The notes under the pieces are model-generated. The model was not told the origin of the DNA, did no database searches, and saw nothing but the letters and a program-made list of their open reading frames with translations. Of a stretch of 52,489 nt of DNA, positions 6,978 to 39,373 are shown piece after piece (positions within the stretch are counted from its first letter, which is position 1; each line of letters begins with the position of its first letter). This DNA is from Clostridia bacterium (GTDB lineage Bacteria; Bacillota; Clostridia; UBA1381), in assembly GCA_022768695.1 (NCBI GenBank), contig JALEPO010000052.1:1-52489 (forward strand). The letters are read 5' to 3'. A program made the position numbers and the translations under genes.

Positions 6978-7268
6978 TTACATTTTAAATAGCTTAGAAA
7001 GCTTTGTCAGATTTAAAAGTTTCACCGCAGAATCAATTGATTTTTTCCTGTCATCTCTCATATACGGTTTTAATGAAAGTAATAGATTTGAACGGGGATC
7101 ACTATTGCTCCTGCTTAGTCTATCCACAATATCACGCATCTCCAAAAGATAATCAGCACTGTTATCATTCGCTTCATCTCCCGAAGAAAACGAGCTCATT
7201 ACATTCCTAATTTTATCCTCTGCGTCATCGCCGAGAATATTTTTCAGAGTATCCATTGCGTCCGACAT
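6978..7268 (-). CDS. Small conserved-looking protein of unknown function
   Basis: A 96-residue soluble protein without membrane segments. The N-terminal half is acidic (LGDDAEDKIRNVM, SSGDEANDNSAD). The C-terminal half reads SNLLLSLKPYMRDDRKKSIDSAVKLLNL, a basic amphipathic helical pattern seen in short clostridial hypotheticals. The start has the ribosome binding site GGCGGTGA. It lies 13 bp after the upstream small gene and 18 bp before the membrane protein gene, so the three are probably co-transcribed. Not recognised. Confidence 0.7.
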   Translation of the reverse strand: MSDAMDTLKNILGDDAEDKIRNVMSSFSSGDEANDNSADYLLEMRDIVDRLSRSNSDPRSNLLLSLKPYMRDDRKKSIDSAVKLLNLTKLSKLFKM

Positions 7269-7281
7269 TTATTTCACCGCC

Positions 7282-7509
7282 TTATAATTTATTAATAATA
7301 TTTCTTAAATCTCTATCCGACATATTTGAAATTGTTTTCTTTATTTCATTTGTATCCATTCTTGAAAATTCACGCATCAATTTTTCTTTATCGGCTTTTG
7401 TAAGCTGATTTTTTAATCTGTTTCCCTGTGCTGAATTTAAAAATGAATTTATTTCTCTAAGCTGTTTTTGGTCAAAGCTTTTAAGAATATCCTGCATTTT
7501 TTTATTCAT
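7282..7509 (-). CDS. Small helical protein of unknown function
   Basis: I take the ATG at 7509, behind GGCGGTGG, giving 75 residues; a longer frame reaches 7557 but has no ribosome binding site. The protein is highly charged and predicted helical: MQDILKSFDQKQLREINSFLNS, with KEKLMREFSRMD and MSDRDLRNIINKL near the end. No membrane segment or known motif. It begins the three-gene small operon. The same type of ribosome binding site is used by the following gene. Confidence 0.65.
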   Translation of the reverse strand: MNKKMQDILKSFDQKQLREINSFLNSAQGNRLKNQLTKADKEKLMREFSRMDTNEIKKTISNMSDRDLRNIINKL

Positions 7510-7701
7510 AATTAATTCCACCGCCTTTCTGTCCGCAAGCAACAGCAGAAAATTCACGCTTTATCTGCGGACGCATAAAGTGCTAAACTATAGCCTGATA
7601 CTATGTGCCTGCTCCAAATCAAACAACGCAGCTTATCATTTCGTATCTCCTTAATACATTTTATTAATATGTTACTACTTTTTACTATATTCTGCAAATA
7701 T

Positions 7702-7733
7702 AAAAAAAGAGTATGTCCATTCGACATACTCTT
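7702..7733 (-). terminator. Terminator of the envelope operon
   Basis: A perfect 11-bp stem AAGAGTATGTC (7707-7717) with GACATACTCTT (7723-7733), loop CATTC, followed on the minus strand by a run of seven T. It lies 11 bp after the last DUF4330 gene and ends the leftward operon. Confidence 0.85.
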
Positions 7734-7744
7734 AAAAAGTTATT

Positions 7745-8236
7745 TTATTCAGCCACCTTAACGCTCATAATCTCGCCGGTGGTTTTTACATATTTTGAAT
7801 TAATATCAATTGTTCTTCCTACCGAAAGCTCTGACGTATCATCCATAATATAACTGTCCGCAGATTCTTTTCCTGTAGCAACTATGGTAACAAAACAAGT
7901 ATATCTGTCAGGCAAATCTGTCCAAATAATTTCTCCCGAAGCAGTAGTCGACTGAAACTCCGTAGGAACAATTTCAACGTTTTTAATCTCTCCCAAATCC
8001 ATCTCGCTCTTTCTATCGGTTATTTTTCCTTTTTTATTCAGAGCATCAATCGTGTACTCACGCACACCTGTTACTTTAACAACAAATTCAAATTTTTCAT
8101 TTGACTGCACAGCCGTTGTCATACTGTTTCCAAATCTCACAAAAATACCGACAATCACAATCAAAACAACAAAAATTATGCCTATATCAATAATACTAAC
8201 CTTTCCGCCTATTTTTCCGTTTTTATCCAGTATCAT
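7745..8236 (-). CDS. DUF4330 family membrane-anchored protein
   Basis: A 163-residue protein with one N-terminal membrane segment (KVSIIDIGIIFVVLIVIVGIFV, about residues 12-34) and an extracytoplasmic beta-rich domain typical of DUF4330. The opening MILDKNGKIGGKVSIID is characteristic of the family. The function is unknown; the family often occurs near polysaccharide export genes. AGGAGG precedes the ATG. It is the last gene of the operon and a diverged paralogue of the gene just upstream. Confidence 0.8.
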   Translation of the reverse strand: MILDKNGKIGGKVSIIDIGIIFVVLIVIVGIFVRFGNSMTTAVQSNEKFEFVVKVTGVREYTIDALNKKGKITDRKSEMDLGEIKNVEIVPTEFQSTTASGEIIWTDLPDRYTCFVTIVATGKESADSYIMDDTSELSVGRTIDINSKYVKTTGEIMSVKVAE

Positions 8237-8248
8237 ATCATTCGCCTC

Positions 8249-8719
8249 CTATTCCTCATTAACTTCTATTATAAATCCATTTGTTGCATATCCCTTACCT
8301 CTTACCGGAATCTGCTCGCCTACTCTTATCACTATATCACCTGCTTTTATAGCCAAGTCATTTACAGCTACATCAGCCTCAACAGTTAAATAAATATCCT
8401 TTTTATCGTCAATATGCTGGATTTTATAGGAACCGTCAATACTGTCAAAAACCATCATTTCAGCAACCTCAGTTTTTATATCAGTAATTTCCCCGCCGTC
8501 CTTCTCCGTAAGACTTAAGGTGACTCTGTCACCTATATTCATTGCGTCAACAAACTCCTGATCTTTTCCTGTTATAAGTACCGTAAACTGTACCTTATCC
8601 TTTTCTGTTTTATCAAATAATGACGGTGCAAGCTTTAGTGCACCTATAGCAACAGCCGCAATTAAAACCACTATAATAAGCGCGTCAATCACAGTGAATT
8701 TTACTTTTTTTTCTGCCAT
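8249..8719 (-). CDS. DUF4330 family membrane-anchored protein, second copy
   Basis: A 156-residue protein with the same design as its neighbour: a short basic start, one membrane segment (FTVIDALIIVVLIAAVAIGAL) and an extracytoplasmic domain containing FTVLITGKDQEFVDAMNIGD. The similarity to the next gene is clear only in layout and in the order of beta strands, so the duplication is old. GGGAGG lies upstream of the ATG, 2 bp after the GT4 gene stop. The pair may form a membrane complex with the polysaccharide enzymes, but that is inference. Confidence 0.75.
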   Translation of the reverse strand: MAEKKVKFTVIDALIIVVLIAAVAIGALKLAPSLFDKTEKDKVQFTVLITGKDQEFVDAMNIGDRVTLSLTEKDGGEITDIKTEVAEMMVFDSIDGSYKIQHIDDKKDIYLTVEADVAVNDLAIKAGDIVIRVGEQIPVRGKGYATNGFIIEVNEE

Positions 8720-8721
8720 GT

Positions 8722-9843
8722 TTATTTACCTCCCTTTATCGTGTCCAGATATAAATTTTCTGTATTTCTTGTCATTGCCTTTGCAGTAAAGGTTTCGCTG
8801 AATATTTTTTTTGAGCCGTCAGAAAGCTCCTTATACAGATCATCGTCCGTAAGCAGCTTTTCTATGCCTTCCGCAAGCGCGTGAGCATTTTGTTTAGGAA
8901 CTATAAATCCGTTTTTACCTGATTTTATAACTCCCGGATTACCGCCAAAATCCGATACAACCGCCGGTATTCCCAGACTCATGCCCTCAAGCAAAGCAAG
9001 ACTTGTAGCCTCTGTTCCGAATGAAGCATTAGCCTGAACATCGGTTATATTCATAAGCTTGTCAACATCGGATATAAATCCTGTAAAGATTATATTATCG
9101 CCGCGTCCGATTGCTTTTACCTTTTCCTTGAGATGCTCCTCATATGAGCCTGTTCCGGCAATGAAGAACTTCGCCTTTATTCCTTTTTTCAGAAGCTCAT
9201 CCGCCGCTTCAATAAAGTAATCATGCCCCTTTATATCTTCCAGACGCGCCACAATTGAAACCGCTTTTTCTCCGTCAAGCAAACCAAATCTTTTTTTAAT
9301 CTCTGCCTTTTCCGCATCCGAAACAGGTTTTAGTCCCTCTACTCCGTTGAGAATAACAGTGATTTTCTTGTCGCTGACACCGGTGTCGGTAAGATTGTCC
9401 TTTGCCGCTTCAGCTACTGCAATAATCCTATTAGACAGAAAATTATTCACAGCTCCGTTTATGATTTTCCCTATTCCCCGAGAAATCCTTTTTGACGGCG
9501 GAAAAACACTATGACGTGTATATACAATTTTCGCTCCGGCGAGCTTCGCTGCAATTCTTGCGGACATACTTGCATGAGTATGCACCAAATCAGGCTTTTC
9601 TTCCTTAAATATGCGTTTTAAAGCTCCGACAGCGCTCCAGTCCAATGATTTGTCCGCAATTCCATCTACTTCAATCACGGGTATCCCCATTGCGTCTATA
9701 TGAGGCTTTAACAAGCTGTTTTTCGGAAGTACAGCCTTAACCTCAAATTTATTGTAATCAAAATTTTCAAGCAACGCAAGCAAGCATTTTCCTGCACCGC
9801 CTATATTAGTATCAGAGGACACCTCAATTATCTTCGTTTTCAA
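8722..9843 (-). CDS. Glycosyltransferase family 4 protein
   Basis: A 373-residue GT-B fold enzyme. The N-terminal acceptor domain opens with IIEVSSDTNIGGAGKCL and has HTHASMSARIAAKLAG. The C-terminal nucleotide-sugar domain has VSIVARLEDIKGHDYFIEAA and the donor motif EATSLALLEGMSLGIPAVVSDFGGNPGVI with both conserved Glu. No membrane segment, so it acts at the cytoplasmic face. It starts with TTG at 9843 behind GGAGGAG and overlaps the stop of the upstream gene by 4 bp (TTGA), a sign of translational coupling. The sugar specificity cannot be read from sequence. Confidence 0.9.
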   Translation of the reverse strand: MKTKIIEVSSDTNIGGAGKCLLALLENFDYNKFEVKAVLPKNSLLKPHIDAMGIPVIEVDGIADKSLDWSAVGALKRIFKEEKPDLVHTHASMSARIAAKLAGAKIVYTRHSVFPPSKRISRGIGKIINGAVNNFLSNRIIAVAEAAKDNLTDTGVSDKKITVILNGVEGLKPVSDAEKAEIKKRFGLLDGEKAVSIVARLEDIKGHDYFIEAADELLKKGIKAKFFIAGTGSYEEHLKEKVKAIGRGDNIIFTGFISDVDKLMNITDVQANASFGTEATSLALLEGMSLGIPAVVSDFGGNPGVIKSGKNGFIVPKQNAHALAEGIEKLLTDDDLYKELSDGSKKIFSETFTAKAMTRNTENLYLDTIKGGK

Positions 9844-11717
9844 GCTATCTCCTCCTTCTTTATATGGTGCAGCGCCATACCGACTGCCAATACCATGAAC
9901 ATTACCGCCATAACTCTGTAGTTATAGAAAGTATAGTCAAACATACTTTGTGCCAGAAATCCTATTATTCCGCTCGTCAATGCAAGTGACATTGCCGAAT
10001 CTAAACTTTTCTTCTCACCTAACCTATAGGTATCAGACATCTTTTTCGCAAATATAATATTCATTGCAAGGAACACTATCAGCGCGCCGATACCCGCTTC
10101 AACGGTAAGCTGCAAAAATGTATTATGTGAATGCGGTGCGATAATAGCATTATACGAGAAAAACGGATAAACCTTTGCAAATGCCATCTCTCCCATTCCT
10201 ATACCGCCTATCCAGAAATACCGCAGCAGTCCAAGCGTTCCCATCCAGATATACACACGGTATGATGTTGAGGAATCGTTCATATTACCTATACTTAATA
10301 TTCTGTCAATAATGGTCTGAGGCAGCACAAACGGCAGTATACACAGCACCACAGGAATAAGCCCCCATAATTTACCTTCATAAAATGTTACAAAAATAAA
10401 TACGCTTATAATAAATCCAATCCAACAGCCTCTTGACTGCGTAAGCACAAGGCACAGCGCAAGCACCAAAAACATTGCCGCGTATGTGTACTTTGGTAAT
10501 TCCTTTAATTTGTATTTTAACATATACACCGCAGCTACCGGCAATACCAACAGCAAATATTCTCCCAACACATTCGGATTTCCGAGTGTAGAATACACAC
10601 GCATTGTAGAATCCTCAAACATTTGCTCATCTATCCATGCGTTCGAGGTTGTCCAACCGAATAAATACTGCATAATTCCGTAAAGCGCTACAAATGCTCC
10701 TGAAATTACAAATACCTTCAGCAAGGCATATAGCTGTTCCTTTGTTTCGATAGTATTTATAATTACAAAATAGTAATTCAAAAATACAAAATACATTGCC
10801 CATACTTTAAGACTTCCCATTCTTGCAAAGGAGAACACCGATGTAATAAACAATATTGACAGCAGCAGCATTATGCTAAGACCCACTCCATCAAATCTCC
10901 ATTTAAAGCTTTTAGTTGAAATGGATTTTATAACAAGCGAAAGCATTGTCCATATGCATATTCCGGCAAGTATCATAGTCGGCAGAAACGGCGCCGTAAA
11001 CATTGATATAAACACACCCGTTATCGGCGCGTACATCACAAGCATCATTCCAAACAGTGCAAACGGCACAGCAGCCCCATAAAGTGGACTTACACTCATA
11101 ACCGTCCCCGTCAAAAAGCCTGCCGCTACAGCTATAACAAGTCTGCCCGCACCTTTTATTCTGTTTTCATCATAAAATTCAAAATCAAGATTTTTAAATC
11201 CCGCAGCAGTCTTTATAAATTTAACAACTCGGCTGGGATTTAAAAATCCCATAAGGTTATAATTCATAAGCGCTAAAATTGCGCCAAACACAGCCGCAAT
11301 TAATACTATTTTTGAAAATGAACCACTTCTTACAAATTTCACCGCCGTATACGCAACCGATGCCGAAAGCAGCATTATTCCAAAAAATTTAGTATTAACT
11401 GCCATAAAATTCTGTATATATAATCTTGACCACGCACAGATAAAGCTGTTTTTTATATTTGTTTCTATAAAATTACTTATTTTGCTCCGCAAAAAATTCA
11501 AAAATGTAAACGGACTCCTGAAAAGCTTAGCCACAGTGCTTGCCGAAACCATGTCGCGTTCATTTTTTCTCAGCTTATTCATTATGCAGCTTTTTTTCCA
11601 CGAATCTGAAACACCGTTATAAATTTTCATAAGCAGAGAATATATTCCGCTCTTTTTAAACAAATTTCCAAATCCGCGAAAAAATGTCATTAATGCGGTA
11701 AGTATTAAACTATTCAT
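9840..11717 (-). CDS. O-antigen ligase / polymerase-like (Wzy_C) membrane protein
   Basis: A 625-residue protein with about a dozen membrane segments after an amphipathic, basic N-terminal region of some 90 residues. The Wzy_C/O-antigen ligase signature is present: LVLTQSRGCWIGFII near 420, and the large loop with PHSHNTFLQLTVEAGIGALIVF near 545, where the His is expected to be functional. In Gram-positive bacteria such proteins polymerise wall polysaccharide repeats or join glycan to an acceptor outside the membrane. The start has AAGGAG, and the gene follows MurJ by 4 bp. Polymerase and ligase roles cannot be told apart from sequence. Confidence 0.8.
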   Translation of the reverse strand: MNSLILTALMTFFRGFGNLFKKSGIYSLLMKIYNGVSDSWKKSCIMNKLRKNERDMVSASTVAKLFRSPFTFLNFLRSKISNFIETNIKNSFICAWSRLYIQNFMAVNTKFFGIMLLSASVAYTAVKFVRSGSFSKIVLIAAVFGAILALMNYNLMGFLNPSRVVKFIKTAAGFKNLDFEFYDENRIKGAGRLVIAVAAGFLTGTVMSVSPLYGAAVPFALFGMMLVMYAPITGVFISMFTAPFLPTMILAGICIWTMLSLVIKSISTKSFKWRFDGVGLSIMLLLSILFITSVFSFARMGSLKVWAMYFVFLNYYFVIINTIETKEQLYALLKVFVISGAFVALYGIMQYLFGWTTSNAWIDEQMFEDSTMRVYSTLGNPNVLGEYLLLVLPVAAVYMLKYKLKELPKYTYAAMFLVLALCLVLTQSRGCWIGFIISVFIFVTFYEGKLWGLIPVVLCILPFVLPQTIIDRILSIGNMNDSSTSYRVYIWMGTLGLLRYFWIGGIGMGEMAFAKVYPFFSYNAIIAPHSHNTFLQLTVEAGIGALIVFLAMNIIFAKKMSDTYRLGEKKSLDSAMSLALTSGIIGFLAQSMFDYTFYNYRVMAVMFMVLAVGMALHHIKKEEIA

Positions 11718-11721
11718 GTAC

Positions 11722-13278
11722 TCACTCCTTCTTCTTTATTATCATTCTGACCTCATCAATTCCGAAAATATACGCTGTTACAGCATAAGCTATCACTCCT
11801 ATGGCGCCGCACACAGCGCACACAATAATATTTCCGAGCAATGAATCAAAGCGTCCGCTTATTGATATATAAACTATATAAACCACAACGCCCATTAGCG
11901 CGGCAGCCAGAACCGAAAACAACATATTTTTAATATCATTCTTCCTTATCATATCGGGATATTTACGAACCATGCAGAACCAGTTAAGCGCCGCATTGAC
12001 TATTGAGCCACAGGCCGCTGCAAGCGCAAGTCCGTTTGTTGACATGAAATTATAAAATATATATGCAAGCACAATATTTACAACCATACTTACAACAGAA
12101 TTGCGCATCGGCGTTTTGCTGTCCTGAAGTGAAAAAAACGCTTTTGAAAGTATTTCATTAAGTCCCAGTCCAAGCATACCCACCGAATAATATTTAAGCA
12201 GCACGCTTATTGCTTCAACTCCGGCTTCATCCATTTTGCCATATCCGTAAATAATATCGGAAACAGGCTTTGAAAGAATCATAAATCCCGCCATAAGCGG
12301 CGCTATAATAAGTACAATCGCTCTTATCGAGCTTACAGTCAGCCGCTTTGCCTCCGCCATATTATTTCCGGCAACCGCCTGTGCAAGCTTTGGAAAAATC
12401 AGATTCGTTACAATGAAGCTGAAAACGCCCACAACCATTATATAAAGCTGATTTGACTGCTGAATATAAGTAACAGCCGAGTCTATATTTGACGCAAAGC
12501 GCTGATTTACCAGACTATACAGCGGCTGAACCCAAGTTGATATAAGCATCGGACCTGCAAGCAAAAGCGTTTGTTTAATACCGCTGTCCTTAAATCTAAA
12601 ATCAAATCTGAACCTTACACCAAATTTTCTTATCCACGGAATCTGTATCAGGAATTGCAGACTCCATGCTATTACCATTGTTATCGACAATCCGTAAACC
12701 CCAAATTTCTTGCCGAAAAAAATATAATAAAGTATAATAGCCGCGTTTGAAACAAGACTTATCATGGCCGGAATTTTATATTCCCCGAACGACTGCAAAA
12801 GTCCGACAAACGAAAAGGCAAGTCCCGTAAAAATTATCATAGGGAACATTATTGCGGTAAGCTCCGCCGTTAAGGCTTGCTTTTCAGGTGTATAATTAGG
12901 CACCTGTATTGCAACAAGCGGTCCCCGGAAAATTATTCCCACAGTCATTATCAATACTGATATGCATAATATAAGCGTTACAAACTTATTGACAAATTTC
13001 ATCGCTTCATTTTTTCCGCGTTTTGACATTATATCGTTAAACACGGGTATAAACGATGCTGAAATTACTCCGCCTATCACCACATCAAACAATATTGTAG
13101 GCAGCGTAGACGCTGTCAGGAATGCGTCCGACTCCATTCCTGAGCCGAAATACGCTGTTAAAAAGGAATTGCGTACCAGCCCCAAAGCCTTCGCCGCTAA
13201 GGTTACTATAGCCATAAATCCGGCTGTAAGAAGCATTTTATTTTTAAATTTACTCAAGCTCAACACTTCCTTTTTCAT
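11722..13278 (-). CDS. murJ: MurJ / MviN-family lipid flippase
   Basis: A 518-residue polytopic membrane protein of the MOP superfamily, close to the usual MurJ length, with about 14 membrane segments. Typical motifs are AAKALGLVRNSFLTAYFG near the start and SKAFFSLQDSKTPMRNSVVSM near 390. MurJ moves lipid II across the membrane for peptidoglycan; a paralogue inside a polysaccharide operon may instead move another lipid-linked sugar, so the substrate is open. The ATG at 13278 overlaps the upstream gene by 29 bp and lacks a ribosome binding site. A TTG at 13257 with AAGGAAG 8 bp upstream, overlapping the previous stop by 8 bp, is an attractive alternative start. Confidence 0.85.
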   Translation of the reverse strand: MKKEVLSLSKFKNKMLLTAGFMAIVTLAAKALGLVRNSFLTAYFGSGMESDAFLTASTLPTILFDVVIGGVISASFIPVFNDIMSKRGKNEAMKFVNKFVTLILCISVLIMTVGIIFRGPLVAIQVPNYTPEKQALTAELTAIMFPMIIFTGLAFSFVGLLQSFGEYKIPAMISLVSNAAIILYYIFFGKKFGVYGLSITMVIAWSLQFLIQIPWIRKFGVRFRFDFRFKDSGIKQTLLLAGPMLISTWVQPLYSLVNQRFASNIDSAVTYIQQSNQLYIMVVGVFSFIVTNLIFPKLAQAVAGNNMAEAKRLTVSSIRAIVLIIAPLMAGFMILSKPVSDIIYGYGKMDEAGVEAISVLLKYYSVGMLGLGLNEILSKAFFSLQDSKTPMRNSVVSMVVNIVLAYIFYNFMSTNGLALAAACGSIVNAALNWFCMVRKYPDMIRKNDIKNMLFSVLAAALMGVVVYIVYISISGRFDSLLGNIIVCAVCGAIGVIAYAVTAYIFGIDEVRMIIKKKE

Positions 13279-15487
13279 ACAGCTCTATTGCCAGTCGCCC
13301 GTTTTCAATTGCTTTTTCTTTTAACAGCTTATAATTATCAATTAAATCATCTCTGATTTCGTCGTATTCAACTATACATTTATCTATCATGCTGCTTATC
13401 TTATCAGCTGTTATGCCGTCAACGTTCACATGCAGATTCTGATGAGTGTATTCCATAAAGCTGCTTATCTTCGGGTCATATACAAGTCCAACAAGCGGAA
13501 CTGCGTTTATAGCCGAATAAATTAACATATGCAGACGCATTCCTATGCACATATTCATGCATTTAACCACGGCCAGCATATCTGTTACCGCCTGATTGCT
13601 GTCCATAATTGATGACTTGTACTTCATTTTGCGCATGATTGACTGCGATATTGCAAGATCCTTGCTTGCCTGCATAGGTAAAAACACAGGATATAAGCCG
13701 TATTTTTCAACTGCGTAATCACAAGCCCTTGCCACAGCATCTTCAAAATCGGCTCCCACATCGCGCCATTTTCTGACTGAAATCCCCAACAATGATTTGT
13801 CAACCGGAACTCCGGCTTTCTTCAGTATTTCAAGTCCTCGTTCCTTGTCCACACTGTCAAGATTTAATGCCGGATCTGCCGTAACAATCGTCTTTGGCTT
13901 AGTTACTCCTATTTGCTTTAATATTTCAAGCGATTTATCATCACGCAAAGTTATCAAATCAACATTATTTATGGTTTTACGCGTCCGCACTTTGTTTTTT
14001 TCCTTATTAAGCGGGCCTATACCATTTGAGTAAAGCATTACTTTCAGCTTATGCTTCTTTGCAAGCGAAATAACGGCAAGATAATACCATAGCGATTTAG
14101 TGCTTGTAGTATCCTGAATAAGCGTTCCTCCACCCGATATAAGCATATCCGCCTTTTTCATATGCCGCCAAATTGCAAACGGATTTAAACGGTTTATAGC
14201 CTTAACTCTGTATATACGGTTTGTTTCCTTAGGATTTGCACTTAAAACAACTATATTCGGGCTTTCCTTATGCTTTTGCAAATCCTGAATTATTGACATA
14301 AGCAGTGCGTCGTCACCGCTGTTTTTGAAGCCGTAATATCCTGAAATCAATATTTCATCATGTTTTTCAATCACCCAATCATATACCTTTATACTGTCGT
14401 CAGCCATGCGTGAAACAGAATATTCGCGTTTTATAAGATTTCTGCCGTATTCGCCAAGCTCATTCCTTTCTTCGACGCTCATTGCAAAAAATCTTAATAT
14501 ATCCCGTTCAAGCAATGCCGCGGATGATTCCTCACAACCTCTGCAGCAGAAATTCGTATCTATTCCCACCTGCAGCTTAGTTCTGTCAAAAAGTCCTAGA
14601 TATCCTTCATTTCCCGCGATAATCACAGGCTTTTCAGCCGCCATTGCCTCCAGTGCCGCACGGCTTACGCCAACAAACAGCTCACATGGTGCAATCAGCT
14701 TGTTAATATCTGTCCTCGCTCCGGTAAGTACTATAACCCGGCGTCCAAGCTGAGCATTGACATTTTCTGCCATCTCTTTTACGTTTTCAAAATCATCACC
14801 GCTGCCTACAAGTATTATTTTTAGATCAGGTATCTGAGCGTCAAGCCTCGGTACAGCTTCTATAAGCTGCTTTGCCACCAGACTTCTTGACTCGTCCAAT
14901 CGGCTTACATATGTTATTACGCTTTCATTCGGCGATATCTCAAGCTCCTGCATAATTTCAGATGCGTCTGTATTAGGAGAAAATTTTTCTGTATCTATTC
15001 CGTTTATTGTAACACGAATGTCCCCCGCCGGCACCTTATAATTATCCATCAGATATGTTTTAATATCCTCCGATACCGCAACTACCTTTTCTCCCCAGTC
15101 TGTAATGTATTTTAATCCATAGCCTGTATTGAATACCCAGTGAGCCGTTGTAACAAACGGGAATTTCATTCTCTTGTGAAGCTTTCCGAGAATAAATGAC
15201 GGTATTCTTGCATGAGAATGCACAATATCAATTTTTTCTTCAATAATAATCTTCTTCAGCAACCGCATTGCCTTAAACATATTTATAGGATTTTTATTCT
15301 GCAGCGGTACCGAGTAATGCTTAATTCCGCTTTCTTCAAGCTCCTTTACATAGACACCGCCGTTTGATGTAACGATAACATTAAATCCCTTTCGTTTCAG
15401 CTCCTTGGCAAGCTCCACAACGTGCGTCTCGGCTCCGCCTATATTAAGCTGCATCAATGACAACAGGATATTCTTTCCTTCTTGCAT
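13250..15487 (-). CDS. csaB: Fusion of GT4 glycosyltransferase and CsaB-type polysaccharide pyruvyl transferase
   Basis: The ATG at 15487 has GGAG 8 bp upstream; an earlier ATG at 15505 has none. The 745-residue product has two enzymes in line. Residues about 5-370 form a GT4 domain (MQLNIGGAETHVVELA, IVHSHARIPS, SRAALEAMAAEKPVIIAGNEG). Residues about 379-735 form a polysaccharide pyruvyl transferase domain beginning ISGYYGFKNSGDDALL, with ISGGGTLIQD, YSNGIGPL and MCIGMRLHMLIYSAI. CsaB adds ketal pyruvate to secondary wall polysaccharide, which is what SLH domains of surface proteins bind. The fusion would couple sugar addition and pyruvylation. It is the first gene of the envelope operon and overlaps murJ. 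Both active-site regions look intact. Confidence 0.85.
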   Translation of the reverse strand: MQEGKNILLSLMQLNIGGAETHVVELAKELKRKGFNVIVTSNGGVYVKELEESGIKHYSVPLQNKNPINMFKAMRLLKKIIIEEKIDIVHSHARIPSFILGKLHKRMKFPFVTTAHWVFNTGYGLKYITDWGEKVVAVSEDIKTYLMDNYKVPAGDIRVTINGIDTEKFSPNTDASEIMQELEISPNESVITYVSRLDESRSLVAKQLIEAVPRLDAQIPDLKIILVGSGDDFENVKEMAENVNAQLGRRVIVLTGARTDINKLIAPCELFVGVSRAALEAMAAEKPVIIAGNEGYLGLFDRTKLQVGIDTNFCCRGCEESSAALLERDILRFFAMSVEERNELGEYGRNLIKREYSVSRMADDSIKVYDWVIEKHDEILISGYYGFKNSGDDALLMSIIQDLQKHKESPNIVVLSANPKETNRIYRVKAINRLNPFAIWRHMKKADMLISGGGTLIQDTTSTKSLWYYLAVISLAKKHKLKVMLYSNGIGPLNKEKNKVRTRKTINNVDLITLRDDKSLEILKQIGVTKPKTIVTADPALNLDSVDKERGLEILKKAGVPVDKSLLGISVRKWRDVGADFEDAVARACDYAVEKYGLYPVFLPMQASKDLAISQSIMRKMKYKSSIMDSNQAVTDMLAVVKCMNMCIGMRLHMLIYSAINAVPLVGLVYDPKISSFMEYTHQNLHVNVDGITADKISSMIDKCIVEYDEIRDDLIDNYKLLKEKAIENGRLAIELYEKGSVELE

Positions 15488-15519: not shown

Positions 15520-15554
15520 AATTTTATTATAATAAAATTTGACTAAAATAGCAA
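15520..15554 (-). promoter_or_regulatory. Promoter of the envelope operon with a 20-bp palindrome over the -10 box
   Basis: On the minus strand TTGCTA (15549-15554) and TATAAT (15526-15531) are 17 bp apart, 39 bp upstream of the csaB start. The -10 box is inside a perfect 20-bp palindrome, AATTTTATTATAATAAAATT (15520-15539). The palindrome is all A/T, so it may be chance, but its position suits a repressor site. Confidence 0.5.
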
Positions 15555-17225: not shown

Positions 17226-18218
17226 ATGAAAAAAATAATCGGACTGCTGGTAACATCAGCAGTAATAATATCGTCCGTTACAGCCTTTGCGTCCGGTGCA
17301 ATACCCGACCATAAAGGCACAAGTCTTGATCGCTTCCCCATAGGCACGACAGCGCTTGGAAAGGCTGTCAAGCAATACAATGATTTGTTTAAAAAGGCAG
17401 GCGATCAATACGGTGTTGACCCTAACCTGCTTGCCGCGATATGTATGCAGGAATCCTCGGGTATAAACTGGAGCTACCGCGAGGACGGAACAGAATATCC
17501 GGCTTGGGGAATTATGCAGATTGAATATACACTTGAAAAGCAATTTGCGCAGTTCGGTCTTGATACAACAGGCACGCCATGGACGCTTCAGGACAGACTT
17601 GATCCCGAAAAGAGTATTCCGTTCGCAGCATATCTGATTTCTCAGTCGCTCATAAAATATGACTGTGATTATGTTAAAATGATCCAATCATACAATTTCG
17701 GGCAAACTGTTCTTGACAGAATTCTTGAAGCAACAGACGGCGACGCATGGCTTGAGGAACGGAAAAATGCAGCTACATATGCTACAAACTGGCCGTATAA
17801 AACATACGGTGACGCCGAATATGTTGAGCACGTTCTTCGGTATTATCATAATGATATAGAATATATTGGCGCAAAAGTCCGTGTAAATGATAAGCTTATT
17901 GCATTTGCAGATCAGTATCCGCTTATCCTTGATGACGGCTACACCTTTGTTCCCGTAAGAGGAATTGCGGAAACATTAGGCGCAGCAGTAGAATGGGATC
18001 ATGATAATTATCAGGCGGTTATTGAAAAGGACGGTAATATACTGACTATACCAATTAACTGCGACTATGCGTATGTCAATGATGAAGAATATTATCTTGA
18101 AAGCCCTTCAAGAATTATAAATGGCAGAACAATGGTTCCCTTACGTTTTATTGCTGAGCATCTCGACTGCTATGTTGAGTGGGACGGTGATACACGAACA
18201 GTTATTATAACAAAATAA
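17226..18218 (+). CDS. Secreted lytic transglycosylase (SLT/GH23) with copper amine oxidase-like C-terminal domain
   Basis: A 330-residue protein with a signal peptide (MKKIIGLLVTSAVIISSVTAFA) cleaved after about residue 23. Residues about 45-205 form a lysozyme-like SLT domain: YGVDPNLLAAICMQESSG with catalytic Glu76, WGIMQIE, and MIQSYNFG. Residues about 215-330 form two repeats of the copper amine oxidase N-terminal-like fold (VRVNDKLIAFADQYPLI, VPVRGIAETLGAAVEWD, then MVPLRFIAEHLDCYVEWD), a common non-catalytic wall-associated module in Clostridia. The enzyme should cleave peptidoglycan glycan strands outside the cell. AAGGAGG precedes the ATG. It stands alone, with a strong promoter and a hairpin downstream. 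Confidence 0.9.
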   Translation: MKKIIGLLVTSAVIISSVTAFASGAIPDHKGTSLDRFPIGTTALGKAVKQYNDLFKKAGDQYGVDPNLLAAICMQESSGINWSYREDGTEYPAWGIMQIEYTLEKQFAQFGLDTTGTPWTLQDRLDPEKSIPFAAYLISQSLIKYDCDYVKMIQSYNFGQTVLDRILEATDGDAWLEERKNAATYATNWPYKTYGDAEYVEHVLRYYHNDIEYIGAKVRVNDKLIAFADQYPLILDDGYTFVPVRGIAETLGAAVEWDHDNYQAVIEKDGNILTIPINCDYAYVNDEEYYLESPSRIINGRTMVPLRFIAEHLDCYVEWDGDTRTVIITK

Positions 18219-30373: not shown

Positions 30374-32872
30374 TTATTTAATCGGAGTTAAATGCCAAAT
30401 TTTCTTATTATAATCGTCTATTGTTCTGTCACTTGAGAAGAATCCTGACATAGCTGTATTCATAATAGCCATCTCAATCCACTTGGATCTGTTCTGATAG
30501 TCAGCTGAAATCTTCTCCTGTGTCTTCATATATTCCTCAAAATCACGAAGTACCATATAAGTATCAGGATAACCATAATCGCCAAACAGTAATGTCTGAT
30601 ATAAGTCACGGAAGATACTTGTATTGCCCGGAACTATGCTTCCGTCAATAAGCATTTCAAGCGCGTGTCTTAACGATGTATTTGTTGAGTAAATTGTTTT
30701 TACCTCATCATTACCCGCATACTTTAATCTTGCGGCAACCTCGTCAGCCTTAAGACCAAAGATATAGATATTATCCTCGCCTACCTGCTCAAGCATTTCT
30801 ACGTTTGCGCCGTCAAGCGTACCGATTGTAAGCGCGCCGTTAAGCATGAACTTCATGTTACCTGTACCTGAAGCTTCCTTACCGGCTGTCGAAATCTGCT
30901 CTGATACATCTGCAGCTATAATAATCTTTTCTGCGATTGAAACACCGTAGTTTTCGATAAATACAACCTTAATCTTATCCTTAATTCTTGCATCGTTATT
31001 AATAATGTCAGCAACAGAGTTAATCAACTTGATGATGTTCTTTGCTCTTACATAGCCCGGAGCAGCCTTTGCACCGAAAATATATGTCTTTGGATAATAA
31101 TTATCTGCATAAGAAGAATCACTAAGAATTCTGTTGTACTCAGCAATAATATGAAGCACATTCATCATCTGACGCTTATACTCATGCAATCTCTTACACT
31201 GTACATCGAAAATTGAATCAGGATTTACATCAATACCGTTATGCTCCTTGATGTATGCAGCAAGAGCTACCTTATTCTTCTTCTTTATATCGTCAAACTT
31301 CTTCTGGAAATCCTTATCCTTAGCAAACTTAGCAAGCTCTGCAAGCTTTTCTGAATTTTTAAGCCAGCCCTTACCGATCTTTGAATCAATAAGCTCTGTT
31401 AATTCAGGGTTACAATTTGCAATCCATCTTCTGAATGTGATACCGTTTGTGATAGCGTGGAAACGCTCTTTATCAAGGACATAATAGTCACGGAAAATAT
31501 CATCCTTAAGAATTTCTGTATGAAGCTTTGAAACGCCGTTTACCGCAAAACAGCTTGCAAGACAAAGATTTGCCATATTAACCTGGTCGTTAGCGATAAC
31601 AGCCATCCACTGATGCTTGCCCTTGTCACCCGGATATACTGCCTCAAGCTGTTCCATAAGACGTCTGTTGATTTCTTCAACAATCATGTATATTCTCGGC
31701 ACGATTTCTCGGAACATATGAACATTCCACTTTTCAAGAGCTTCGCTCATTACCGTGTGGTTTGTATATGCGAATACATGTGTAACAATATTCCACGCTT
31801 CATCCCAGCCAAGACCTTTTTCGTCCATAAGCAGACGCATCATTTCAGGGATAGCAAGCGTCGGATGTGTATCATTTATGTGGATAACAATCTTGTCAGG
31901 AAGCTTTGACCAGTCGCTGCCGTTTCTTTCCTCAAACTCCTTCAAAATCCACTGCAATGTAGCTGAAACAAGGAAATACTGTTGTCTTAATCTAAGCTTC
32001 TTACCATCGTCTGTAGTATCATCAGGATAGAGAATACCCGAAATCTGCTTTGCAAGGCTCTTAGCCTCCATCATCTTGTCAAATGTACCTCTGTCATAGC
32101 TTATCATGTCAACATCTGTAGGAATTGTGGCACTCCACAATCTCAGCTTATTGACAATCTTTGAATCATAACCTACCAAAGGAACGTCATATGGCATAGC
32201 CAAAACTGTATTTTCATTTCTGTACTTATATACCATTCTGCCGTCAACCCATTCGCAATCTACCTGACCGCCAAATACAACCTTAACAGCCTCTTCCGGT
32301 CTTGAAATTTCCCATGCGTTGCCGTGTTCAAGCCATTCATCAGGCAATTCTGTCTGATAGCCTTCTACAATCTTCTGTCTAAAAAGACCATGCTCGTAAC
32401 GAATTGTACAGCCATATGCAGGTAAATCCATTGTTGTAAGCGAATCGATAAAGCATGCTGCAAGACGTCCAAGACCGCCGTTACCTAATCCGGCATCATT
32501 TTCAAGCTCAGCAATATCTGACAATGAATAACCCAAGTCAGCCAATACATGCTGGTATTCATCTGTCTGCATAAGATTTAAAATGTTTGTGCAAAGCAAT
32601 CTGCCCATCAAAAACTCGAATGAAAGATAATAAAGCTTCTTTGAGCCTTCTTCTTTCACCTGACGGTGTGACTTTGCCCACTTTTCCATTATCTGGTCTC
32701 TTACAGTAAGTGCACATGCGGTATATATCATGTGAGGAGTAGCTTCCTCCATTACTTTACCGAAGTGTCTGCCTACCTTACCTACAATTTCTTTCTTCAA
32801 AGCTTCCTCAGCAGCTGTCAGCTTTACGGCTGATGTCTTTGCTGTTGCTTTTGTTGTTTTTGTTTCTGCCAT
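30374..32872 (-). CDS. glgP: Glycogen / starch phosphorylase with a basic N-terminal extension
   Basis: An 832-residue GT35 enzyme that releases glucose-1-phosphate from glycogen. The pyridoxal-phosphate site is ASGTGNMKFMLNGALTIGTLDG; other family motifs are NDAGLGNGGLGRLAACF and HINDTHPTLAIPEMMRLLMD. The first 17 residues, MAETKTTKATAKTSAVK, are rich in Lys, Thr and Ala and unlike the usual start; similar runs end GlgA and GlgB in this window. AAGGGA precedes the ATG. It starts 15 bp after glgA and shares the glgA promoter, so synthesis and breakdown enzymes are co-expressed. Confidence 0.95.
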   Translation of the reverse strand: MAETKTTKATAKTSAVKLTAAEEALKKEIVGKVGRHFGKVMEEATPHMIYTACALTVRDQIMEKWAKSHRQVKEEGSKKLYYLSFEFLMGRLLCTNILNLMQTDEYQHVLADLGYSLSDIAELENDAGLGNGGLGRLAACFIDSLTTMDLPAYGCTIRYEHGLFRQKIVEGYQTELPDEWLEHGNAWEISRPEEAVKVVFGGQVDCEWVDGRMVYKYRNENTVLAMPYDVPLVGYDSKIVNKLRLWSATIPTDVDMISYDRGTFDKMMEAKSLAKQISGILYPDDTTDDGKKLRLRQQYFLVSATLQWILKEFEERNGSDWSKLPDKIVIHINDTHPTLAIPEMMRLLMDEKGLGWDEAWNIVTHVFAYTNHTVMSEALEKWNVHMFREIVPRIYMIVEEINRRLMEQLEAVYPGDKGKHQWMAVIANDQVNMANLCLASCFAVNGVSKLHTEILKDDIFRDYYVLDKERFHAITNGITFRRWIANCNPELTELIDSKIGKGWLKNSEKLAELAKFAKDKDFQKKFDDIKKKNKVALAAYIKEHNGIDVNPDSIFDVQCKRLHEYKRQMMNVLHIIAEYNRILSDSSYADNYYPKTYIFGAKAAPGYVRAKNIIKLINSVADIINNDARIKDKIKVVFIENYGVSIAEKIIIAADVSEQISTAGKEASGTGNMKFMLNGALTIGTLDGANVEMLEQVGEDNIYIFGLKADEVAARLKYAGNDEVKTIYSTNTSLRHALEMLIDGSIVPGNTSIFRDLYQTLLFGDYGYPDTYMVLRDFEEYMKTQEKISADYQNRSKWIEMAIMNTAMSGFFSSDRTIDDYNKKIWHLTPIK

Positions 32873-32887
32873 ATTTCTACATCCCTT

Positions 32888-34657
32888 CTACTTTTCTTCC
32901 TGCTTGACAGCAGATTTTTTAGCAGTTGTCTTTTTTGCCGAAGCAGTCTTTTTTGAAGTAGTTTTTTTAGCCGTTGACCTTGTAGTCTTTTTTGCTGCCG
33001 GCTTTCTTGCCGACGGCTTCTTGGCTGCTGTTTTGGTTGACGGCTTTACTGCTTCTTCATCCTCAAACGGATTTTTGACCTCAATAACCTTAGGTTCTTC
33101 AGCATTTTTTGCAGCGGCCTGTGCTGCTATCTCAGAATTTTTCTTTAGTGTATCCTCGAAGCTGTCATCATTTACTGCCGCTTTTTCTACAGAATTAGTT
33201 TTTTTTTCCGGCAAATCATAAATACCGGTTAATTCCTGATACATTTTAATATACTTATCAGCTGAAACGTTCCATGAATAGTCAACTGCCATACCGTTGT
33301 CAATGATGTTATTCCACTCATCTCTACGGTCATAATAAATTCTCATAGCATACCAAATGGTATTTAACATTTCATCTGCATTGTAATTAGCAAAGGAGAA
33401 ACCTGTTCCCTCGCCTGTATATTCATTATATGGTACAACTGTATCTTTCAGTCCGCCTGTTTCGCGAACAATAGGTACAGTGCCATAACGCAAACTTATC
33501 AGCTGCGACAAACCACAGGGTTCAAAACGTGACGGCATCAAAAATGCGTCACATGCAGCATAAATCTTGTGTGACATTTCATTTGAAAAATAAATCTGAG
33601 CTGACATTCTGTCAGGATACTTCCATGCGTAATGACGGAATAGATTTTCATATTTCTCATCACCGGTACCTAATACAACTATCTGAGCACCGCCGGCACA
33701 CAATTCTTCAATTTTATAAGCAACAAGGTCAAATCCCTTCTGATCTGTAAGACGAGAAACAATACCAATCATCATCTTATTTTCGTCTACCGGGAGACCA
33801 AGCTCTGCCTGAAGTTTCTTCTTATTTTCAATCTTTTTCTTATGGACAGTTTTTGCAGAATAGTTAGCATAAATCATACCGTCATTCTGCGGATTCCAAT
33901 CGGTATATGAAATACCGTTTACAATACCTACCAAATCATTGCGTCTTACCGAAAGAAGATTATTCAAGCCCTCACCGTATTCAGGAGTTGTAATTTCCCA
34001 TGCATATGTTTCGCTGACAGTTGAAATCTTGTTAGCATAAACCATGCCGCCCTTTAACAGGTTAGCATCTTTATAATATTCCATCTTATCCGCAGTGAAA
34101 TAATAATCGCTGATACCCATAGCGTCCTTTATTCCCTTGAAGTCCCATCTGCCCTGGAATTTCAGATTATGAATAGTCATAACTGTCTTAATTCCGCGGA
34201 AGAACGGGTTATCCTGGAAGGTATCCAAAAATACAGGAATAGGGCCTGTCTGCCAGTCATTACAATTTATAACATCCGGACGGAAATCCAATGTCGGAAG
34301 CAGCGAAAGTACCGCTTTTGAGAAGAAAATGAACTTCTCACAATCCAAATGAATATAATCATATGGTTTATCGCCATTAAAGTAGAATTCATTATCCACA
34401 AAATAATAAATGCAGCCGTTATATTCAAGCTCAAACACACCGGCATACTGACGGCGCCATGCCATATTAATATATATATGGTTAATATATCTCATTTGAT
34501 CTTTAAAATGCTGAGGTATGCATCTGTAAAGAGGCAAAATAACTCTCGCATCAACACCTTTTTCACGCAAAACCGCAGGTAATGATCCTGCAACATCTCC
34601 AAGACCTCCCGTTTTTACAAATGGTGCCGCCTCTGAGGTTGCAAACAAAACTTTCAT
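32888..34657 (-). CDS. glgA: Glycogen synthase (GT5) with a long lysine/alanine/threonine-rich C-terminal tail
   Basis: The ATG at 34657 behind AAAGGAGG gives 589 residues; a longer frame to 34714 is rejected. The catalytic part (about 1-480) is a normal ADP-glucose glycogen synthase: MKVLFATSEAAPFVKTGGLG (the donor-binding KTGGL), HNLKFQGR, and FEPCGLSQLISLRYGTVPIV. About 108 extra residues follow. The first half of the tail is acidic and mixed; the last 53 residues repeat TAAKK, KPAAKKT, STAKKT and SAKKTTAKK and are strongly basic, like histone H1-type bacterial tails. Such a tail is not part of known GlgA. It has its own strong promoter and leads the glgA-glgP unit. Confidence 0.95.
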   Translation of the reverse strand: MKVLFATSEAAPFVKTGGLGDVAGSLPAVLREKGVDARVILPLYRCIPQHFKDQMRYINHIYINMAWRRQYAGVFELEYNGCIYYFVDNEFYFNGDKPYDYIHLDCEKFIFFSKAVLSLLPTLDFRPDVINCNDWQTGPIPVFLDTFQDNPFFRGIKTVMTIHNLKFQGRWDFKGIKDAMGISDYYFTADKMEYYKDANLLKGGMVYANKISTVSETYAWEITTPEYGEGLNNLLSVRRNDLVGIVNGISYTDWNPQNDGMIYANYSAKTVHKKKIENKKKLQAELGLPVDENKMMIGIVSRLTDQKGFDLVAYKIEELCAGGAQIVVLGTGDEKYENLFRHYAWKYPDRMSAQIYFSNEMSHKIYAACDAFLMPSRFEPCGLSQLISLRYGTVPIVRETGGLKDTVVPYNEYTGEGTGFSFANYNADEMLNTIWYAMRIYYDRRDEWNNIIDNGMAVDYSWNVSADKYIKMYQELTGIYDLPEKKTNSVEKAAVNDDSFEDTLKKNSEIAAQAAAKNAEEPKVIEVKNPFEDEEAVKPSTKTAAKKPSARKPAAKKTTRSTAKKTTSKKTASAKKTTAKKSAVKQEEK

Positions 34658-34719
34658 ATGTTCCTCCTTTTCTACGCTAAACCGCGTCATCTGAAAAACA
34701 AACCTCTCATTCACTATGT

Positions 34720-37302: not shown

Positions 37303-39294
37303 TTATTTTATCATTTTTTTTGCGGCAGTTGTTTTTGCTGCCGGCTTTTTTGCTGTTTCAGCTTTTGTTTTAGCAGAGGTCTTTCTGACCGTCTTCTTTT
37401 TCTTTATATACATGATTGAGCTTGGATCAATTTTAACCTCAATTGTATAATCCATATCAGAAAATTGTTTCTTCAAAGCCTTGTATGTCTTTTTTGCCAC
37501 CCGTCTTGTGCCGCCGTATTTTGCAGCATTTGAATGTAACACAACCTCATACTCTCCCGATGTCGGAACTCCGATTTTATATATTGGTCTTTCCACCGGT
37601 GTGAAGTTTGCCACAACAATTACCACATCATTTTTCGCAGTGCCGCGACGCATATACGAAAGAACCGAGTTTTCATTGTCAGAATCGTTTATCCATCTGA
37701 AACCGTCCCAGCTTTGTTCAATTTCCCAGAATGATTTGTTTTCAAGATAAAAATGATTTAAATCCTTTACGAAACTCTTAAGCGTCTGATGTTTCTCCAT
37801 ATCAAGCAAATTCCATTCAAGCTGATCATCAAAACGCCACTCAAGGAACTGACCAAACTCACCGCCCATAAACATTAGCTTCTTGCCGGGCATTGACATA
37901 TAATATCCCAACAGCGTCTTATAAGCGCTAAATTTTTCCTCATATGTTCCGAACATCTTATCAATTAATGATTTCTTTCCATGAACAACCTCATCATGTG
38001 ACAATGGCAGAATAAAGTTTTCTGAATAAGCGTACATCATTATAAATGTAAGAAGTCCATGATTATCCTTCCTGAAATAAGGATCCATTGACATATAACG
38101 CAGCGTGTCGTTCATCCAGCCCATATTCCATTTAAAATTAAAGCCCAGTCCATCATTTTCAGGCGGCGCGGTAACCAATGGCCATGCCGTTGATTCCTCC
38201 GCAATCATAAGGAAATTTGGAAATTCGGTCCCCATAATCTTGTTAAGCTTTCTGAAAAAGTCAACAGCTTCAAGGTTTCCGTTCCCGCCGTACTTATTCG
38301 CAATCCATTCCCCGTCATTTCTCGAATAATCACGGTAGAGCATTGACGAAACTGCATCAACTCTTAAACCGTCAAAATGGAACTCATCCGCCCAAAAATA
38401 TGCCGAAGAAATCAGGAATGAAACAACCTCGCTCTTTGAATAATCAAAAACCATCGTACCCCAATCCTTATGTTCGCCCATTCTAGGATCCGCATATTCA
38501 TATACAGGCGTTCCGTCAAACATTCTGAGTCCGTGAGCATCTCTTGGGAAATGCGCCGGAACCCAGTCCATAATTACACCAATACCGGCCTTATGACATT
38601 TGTTTACAAAATATTTAAGCCCGTCAGCATTGCCATAGCGCGTTGTTGCGGCAAAATATCCCGTAACCTGATAACCCCACGAACCGTCAAACGGATATTC
38701 CATTACAGGCATAAGCTCAACATGAGTATATCCCATATCTGTAAGATATGGAACAAGCTCATCCGCTAATTCCTGATATGTATAGAAAGTACCATCATCA
38801 TGCAGTCTCCATGAGCCTGCGTGGCATTCGTAAATATTCATCGGCACTGGAAGATTATTGGTTTTGTTTCGCTTCTGAAGCCAAGCCCTATCTGACCATT
38901 TGTAGTCTGACAAATCCCTTACAACAGATGCAGTACCGGGTCTTAATTCAGCCTCGAAGGCATACGGATCGGCTTTGTAATAAGTTTCTCCGTCCTTTGC
39001 CTGTATAGCGTATTTATACAGCATTCCCTCCTTTATATCTGTAAAAAATCCATACCAAATACCGGTAGTGGTAATTTTTGATAAGCCCTTATCAAATCCG
39101 TCCCAGTTGTTAAATTCTCCTACTACTCGGACATGAACGGCATTAGGTGCCCAAACAGCAAAACGCCATCCACTTTGTCCGTCAACATTAACCTTATGTA
39201 CTCCAAGCATTTTATATGATTTAAAATTGTCGCCAGAGTTAAAAAGATATGTTTGGAACTCGCTGATGTCCGCCCAGGTTTGTTCTTTAACCAT
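37303..39294 (-). CDS. glgB: Glycogen branching enzyme (GH13) with a basic C-terminal tail
   Basis: The ATG at 39294 behind AAGGAG gives 663 residues; the frame continues to 39354 but without a ribosome binding site. Order: N-terminal CBM48 ([24 protein letters not shown]), barrel with catalytic Asp in [16 protein letters not shown] and Glu in [10 protein letters not shown], then [17 protein letters not shown], and a C-terminal beta domain. It forms alpha-1,6 branches. The last about 34 residues, after SSIMYI, read [20 protein letters not shown] and AAKTTAAKK, a basic tail like that on GlgA. First gene of glgB-glgC-glgD. Confidence 0.96.
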
Positions 39295-39373
39295 TCGTTT
39301 TTCTCCTTCCCTCTTATTGCATATATAATATTTGTTTTGCGCGGGCAAAACCATATATAATAATTATGCTTAT

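Follow-up and report, generated by a model that had tools for sequence, protein, structure and literature searches.

A six-gene clostridial operon with a GT4-CsaB fusion and two DUF4330 proteins, a probable pathway for a pyruvylated wall polymer that anchors SLH proteins

The window, that is, the whole 52,489-nucleotide stretch of DNA that was analysed, comes from a draft genome of a Clostridia bacterium (G000) comprising 2.09 Mb in 197 contigs, with an estimated completeness of 85.6%. It contains an operon of six touching or overlapping genes, all on the minus strand, whose coordinates were checked on the window (Table 1).

Table 1 Genes and flanking sites of the operon and the evidence for their assignment
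Feature	Position	Strand	Evidence
GT4-CsaB fusion (GT4 glycosyltransferase and polysaccharide pyruvyl transferase)	13250..15487	-	Pfam/NCBIfam, PEP-site motifs
MurJ/MviN-family lipid-linked glycan flippase (putative role)	11722..13278	-	TIGR01695 344 bits, tree
Wzy_C membrane protein (O-antigen ligase/polymerase clan, IctB-like)	9840..11717	-	PF04932, invariant Arg
Second GT4 glycosyltransferase	8722..9843	-	Pfam/NCBIfam; TTG start
DUF4330b, bitopic, extracytoplasmic beta domain	8249..8719	-	PF14221, AlphaFold pLDDT 92
DUF4330a, bitopic, extracytoplasmic beta domain	7745..8236	-	PF14221, AlphaFold pLDDT 89
Promoter-like site TTGCTA-17-TATAAT, 5' of first gene	15526..15554	-	consensus match only
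Intrinsic terminator, 11-bp stem and T-run, 3' of last gene	7707..7733	-	sequence

The MurJ gene overlaps the GT4-CsaB gene by 29 bp and is separated from the Wzy_C gene by 4 bp. The second GT4 gene overlaps the Wzy_C gene by 4 bp, DUF4330b lies 2 bp from this GT4 gene, and DUF4330a follows 12 bp from DUF4330b. For GT4-CsaB, the second ATG (15487) was preferred to the start of the longest open reading frame (15505) because a GGAG-type ribosome site lies upstream of it. Together with family scores above curated cut-offs, the gene coordinates bear out the six-gene envelope operon of overlapping or closely spaced genes described in the sequence-only reading. That reading also proposed one promoter and one terminator. 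The terminator is clear, and the enolase gene upstream of the operon has its own terminator-like site (15672-15644). The promoter is a consensus match, and promoter-like sites are common in the AT-rich DNA of the window (45 found, 30 expected); a single promoter for the six genes is likely rather than certain. Just past the terminator lie two small open reading frames, one of 96 aa (6978-7268) with no Pfam match and one of 91 aa (7282-7557) with a sub-threshold MgtE_N match. Homologues of both adjoin the same operon in the genome G014, and a homologue of the 91-aa frame does so in G009.

The CsaB domain matched TIGR03609 with 282 bits (cut-off 213). Mutagenesis of CsaB from P. alvei identified Y14, F16, R148, R207, R306, H308, and K328 as PEP/acceptor-site residues (PMC10435577). 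The motifs YGF, LRD, VR, and RLH, with a Lys exactly 20 residues past the His, are present in the fusion protein, as judged by motif match rather than by full alignment with the P. alvei sequence. Neither the CsaB domain nor the Wzy protein had a meaningful match among solved structures. CsaB scored over the cut-off in 40 of 41 relatives, one per genome, and SLH proteins were found in all 41. The source genome contains 67 SLH-domain matches, and its best-scoring SLH protein carries three TRAE motifs; in SpaA of P. alvei, the Arg of the TRAE motif contacts pyruvate (PMC6081394). The earlier proposal of a secondary wall polysaccharide for SLH anchoring, which presupposed SLH proteins in this genome, is thus strengthened by their abundance, by a true TIGR03609 CsaB with PEP-site motifs, and by the conservation of the operon described below. 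The operon very probably builds a pyruvate-tagged wall sugar that anchors the many SLH surface proteins. Elsewhere in the window (17226-18218), a lytic-transglycosylase-like domain is followed by what appear, by eye, to be copper-amine-oxidase N-terminal-like repeats.

The membrane protein of the operon matched Wzy_C (PF04932) with 69.9 bits (cut-off 31.7) and carries the Arg residues invariant in the family (R373, R429, and R487); its predicted activity is that of a polymerase or a ligase, two functions that sequence does not separate. The two DUF4330 proteins matched PF14221 with 103.9 and 63.9 bits (cut-off 27.6). According to the models, each has a short cytoplasmic GK(L/I)xGKxxIID motif, then one N-terminal membrane helix and, on the extracytoplasmic side, a beta domain that spans about 115 residues. 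An alignment of 171 rows from this phylum and from cyanobacteria has a single near-invariant polar position, an Asp where the helix meets the cytoplasm (169 rows; D17 in DUF4330a and D12 in DUF4330b), and conservation is otherwise limited to a few glycines. No catalytic residue set is conserved over these rows, a pattern that points to a structural or accessory function. The two models gave no Foldseek match at E<=0.001, and a PHROGs search with DUF4330 found nothing. EF-Tu-domain-3-like and T-protein barrels were considered as relatives and rejected, their VIA Z values (<=6.2 and 7.6) being within the background range.

The gene order CsaB(-GT4)-MurJ-Wzy-GT4-DUF4330b-DUF4330a is kept in nearly all genomes of family f1 that have the locus on one contig, with GT4 and CsaB encoded by two adjacent separate genes in several of them. 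The remaining families of the order mostly retain the MurJ-Wzy-GT4-DUF4330 block, and their GT4-CsaB may be located elsewhere. The genes that follow DUF4330 in those families, an amino acid kinase directly after it (Pfam) and then ProA-like and ABC-transporter-like genes (by eye), are lineage-specific and were judged unrelated to the operon. DUF4330 occurs in 38 of the 41 relatives, mostly as a tandem pair; among the three relatives without it, the contigs of G011 and G020 end inside the operon and G013 is a true exception. Two further fusion frames, both checked with Pfam, were found: GT4-DUF4330 (533 aa; L369, 7405-9003, genome G514) and MurJ-Wzy_C (1054 aa; L378, 8940-12101, genome G599). 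These come from draft contigs, and any single case could be a missed stop codon; taken with the GT4-CsaB fusion, they tie the operon genes to one pathway.

Co-occurrence was examined in a class sample of 311 genomes (CsaB at E<1e-40, MurJ at E<1e-45), of which 140 encode DUF4330, 172 CsaB, and 206 MurJ. DUF4330 and CsaB occur together in 136 genomes, DUF4330 without CsaB in 4, CsaB without DUF4330 in 36, and neither in 135 (odds ratio 127, P 7e-48, a statistic that ignores phylogeny); DUF4330 occurs without MurJ in 9 genomes. In the phylum sample, CsaB (E<1e-40) was found in 90/90 genomes with DUF4330, from 35 families, against 320/398 overall. Gene neighbourhoods gave a sharper picture. In stretches of up to about 18 kb around 40 DUF4330 genes of the phylum, some of them on short contigs, Wzy was present in 36 (within 400 bp in 21), GT4 in 33, CsaB in 21, and MurJ in 12. 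Among the stretches holding CsaB, Wzy was present in 20 of the 21 that contain DUF4330 and in 0 of the 20 that lack it (Fisher P 8e-11, again ignoring phylogeny). DUF4330 is thus tied to the Wzy protein rather than to CsaB or MurJ.

None of the 20 CsaB loci taken from DUF4330-free genomes had this Wzy; 17 of them contained DUF5693 instead, a protein of about 680 aa with many membrane segments, and 9 contained MurJ. Wzy with DUF4330 on one side and DUF5693 on the other therefore look like alternatives. Across 77 CsaB stretches, 45 held DUF4330 only, 18 DUF5693 only, 10 neither, and 4 both (L175, L180, L183, and L206), so the exclusion is not absolute. The exception noted above, G013, belongs to the family of the source genome and has CsaB-DUF5693-MurJ with no Wzy-GT4-DUF4330 (L112, G013:C84, 3997-8674); there, the module was apparently exchanged, with CsaB and a MurJ retained. 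The sequence-only reading had regarded the DUF4330 proteins as fixed partners in the pathway and suggested surveying their neighbourhoods for CsaB and MurJ. The survey identified Wzy as the partner, with CsaB and MurJ also occurring where DUF5693 stands in for DUF4330. The accompanying idea that DUF4330 proteins are assembly factors is consistent with these data and gains precision from the Wzy linkage, their biochemical role being presumed.

The operon MurJ was the only protein of the draft genome over the TIGR01695 cut-off (235.6 bits), and nearly all relatives likewise have only one; the other MOP proteins of the source genome are two SpoVB-like proteins (C40 and C107) and two MATE proteins. 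The designation MurJ paralogue in the earlier reading consequently holds in a wide sense only, no second TIGR01695 MurJ over the cut-off having been found in the draft. One alternative is that this MurJ is the housekeeping lipid II flippase, located in a glycan operon by chance, with the polymer flippase encoded elsewhere. Its status as sole copy, taken alone, would favour lipid II, as would the 85.6% completeness of the draft and the curated name of TIGR01695, lipid II flippase. However, a third of the class (105 of 311 genomes) lacks a TIGR01695 MurJ at E<1e-45, so peptidoglycan does not generally depend on this family there, and the two SpoVB-type transporters of the source genome are other lipid II candidates. 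In B. subtilis, a strain devoid of the four MurJ homologues can live (PMC12096821), and knock-down of MviN, encoded in the PSII locus of C. difficile, lowered surface PSII (PMC5065235).

Genomic context and phylogeny also argue against lipid II as the main substrate. MurJ adjoins CsaB both in DUF4330 loci and in the DUF5693-type loci, and it does so in 9 of the 20 CsaB loci mentioned above, whose genomes lack DUF4330. Phylogenetically, the MurJs encoded in the operons of this order group in a single clade of 31 rows (100/99), and the DUF5693-linked MurJs of G013, G031, and G035 form a separate one on a long branch (100/100). Four genomes (G042, G053, G078, and G130) have two MurJs, one linked to CsaB and one unlinked. 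The two kinds lie apart in the tree, and the unlinked copies group tentatively, on long branches, with E. coli MurJ (97/82). A lipid II flippase placed here by chance is accordingly somewhat unlikely, and the operon MurJ probably serves mainly in glycan flipping. The cavity residues were set aside as proof of another substrate. Of those of E. coli MurJ (R24, D25, D39, R52, E57, D269, R270, and E273), R24 and D39 are kept here and the rest are changed; cyanobacterial MurJs, mostly the sole copy found per genome, are without many of the same residues (R52, E57, and mostly R270), so residue loss does not discriminate MurJ substrates. As a separate observation, G031 and G035 (L364 and L365) have a second MurJ beside DUF5693 in addition to a DUF4330 operon in the same genome.

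Outside the phylum, DUF4330 was present in 20/20 cyanobacterial genomes tested. Its neighbourhoods in these 20 genomes showed no link to CsaB, MurJ, or Wzy and no glycan genes; the nearest recurrent neighbour, by eye, was a divergent M48 peptidase (L312-L330). The role of DUF4330 may therefore be broader. This distribution, together with the lack of enzyme-like conserved residues other than D17 and the few glycines, would suit a general envelope protein, for instance one that organises the membrane or responds to stress, whose gene is transcribed together with the wall genes and which acts outside polymer assembly. Such a role is unlikely, because DUF4330 co-occurs almost completely with CsaB in both the class sample and the phylum sample, is tightly linked to Wzy, has been found fused to GT4, and is missing along with Wzy where DUF5693 is used. 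The statements cited in the OmpM paper (PMC10628300) include binding of pyruvylated wall polymer by the SLH domains of cyanobacterial outer-membrane proteins, and a DUF4330 pathway common to cyanobacteria and this phylum is possible. Thermus, Deinobacterium, and Thermotoga controls had SLH and CsaB matches and no DUF4330, so the protein is not universal for SLH systems.

We propose that the operon encodes most steps of a pathway for an SLH-anchoring pyruvylated wall polymer in which DUF4330 proteins are accessory to Wzy, and we give this reading as a whole a probability of roughly 70%. The two GT4 enzymes would extend a lipid-linked oligosaccharide, which the CsaB domain would ketal-pyruvylate with PEP, the acceptor chemistry being presumed. 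The MurJ-family protein would then flip the pyruvylated lipid-linked glycan, and the Wzy_C protein would polymerise or ligate it outside. DUF4330a and DUF4330b may assist this Wzy step as accessory subunits, for instance by serving as a co-polymerase or by handling the chain, possibly in physical contact with Wzy. Initiation and attachment to peptidoglycan would be carried out by genes elsewhere, with LCP enzymes for attachment. A pyruvylated exopolysaccharide or capsule not used for SLH anchoring, to which the Wzx/Wzy-type gene set and the lack of any LCP ligase gene among the six could point, is improbable: the pyruvyl transferase is of the CsaB equivalog and not of the EPS type, CsaB is present over the cut-off as one copy in nearly every relative, and all relatives have SLH proteins.

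The proposed SLH-anchoring pathway shares CsaB pyruvylation, a Wzy/WaaL-clan protein, a MOP-superfamily flippase, and SLH anchoring with the SCWP pathway of B. anthracis and P. alvei, which comprises CsaB, WpaA/WpaB, the MATE-like flippase BAS5279, and LCP ligases (PMC6030368, PMC6081394). In contrast to that system, the genes here form one operon, CsaB is fused to GT4, the flippase is of the MurJ type, and two DUF4330 proteins are present. The PSII locus of C. difficile, with mviN, the CD2777 polymerase, and LcpA/LcpB (PMC5065235, PMC4973711), likewise combines MurJ/MviN with a polymerase, and its polymer anchors surface proteins; these are, however, CWB2 proteins and not SLH proteins. The CsaB-DUF5693(-MurJ) loci elsewhere in the class and phylum have CsaB, and often MurJ, in common with the operon, whereas DUF5693 takes the place of Wzy and DUF4330.

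Polymerisation and ligation were named as remaining open questions of SCWP synthesis, WpaA and WpaB of the Wzy/WaaL clan being candidates in B. anthracis (PMC6030368). Two near-exclusive modules beside CsaB, Wzy with DUF4330 or DUF5693, now provide candidate genes for the polymerisation/attachment step over a large part of the class and phylum, and a first testable role for DUF4330 and DUF5693, neither of which is mentioned in the literature searched. More tentatively, DUF4330 could be a dedicated co-polymerase for the Wzy-type polymerase of pyruvylated wall polymers that makes contact through the single helix-edge Asp, with DUF5693 as a non-orthologous replacement of the Wzy and DUF4330 step; we consider this combined proposal conceivable, although doubtful. 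If true, it would assign two families to the SCWP polymerisation/ligation step, from this class to, for DUF4330, the cyanobacteria.

A further observation concerns glycogen metabolism in the same window (30374-34714 and 37303-39354), where three glycogen enzymes have tails that resemble histone H1 and are rich in Lys, Ala, and Thr. The tails are C-terminal in GlgA (AKKTTRSTAKKTTSKK...) and GlgB and N-terminal in GlgP (AETKTTKATAKTS), an unusual feature for a whole pathway.
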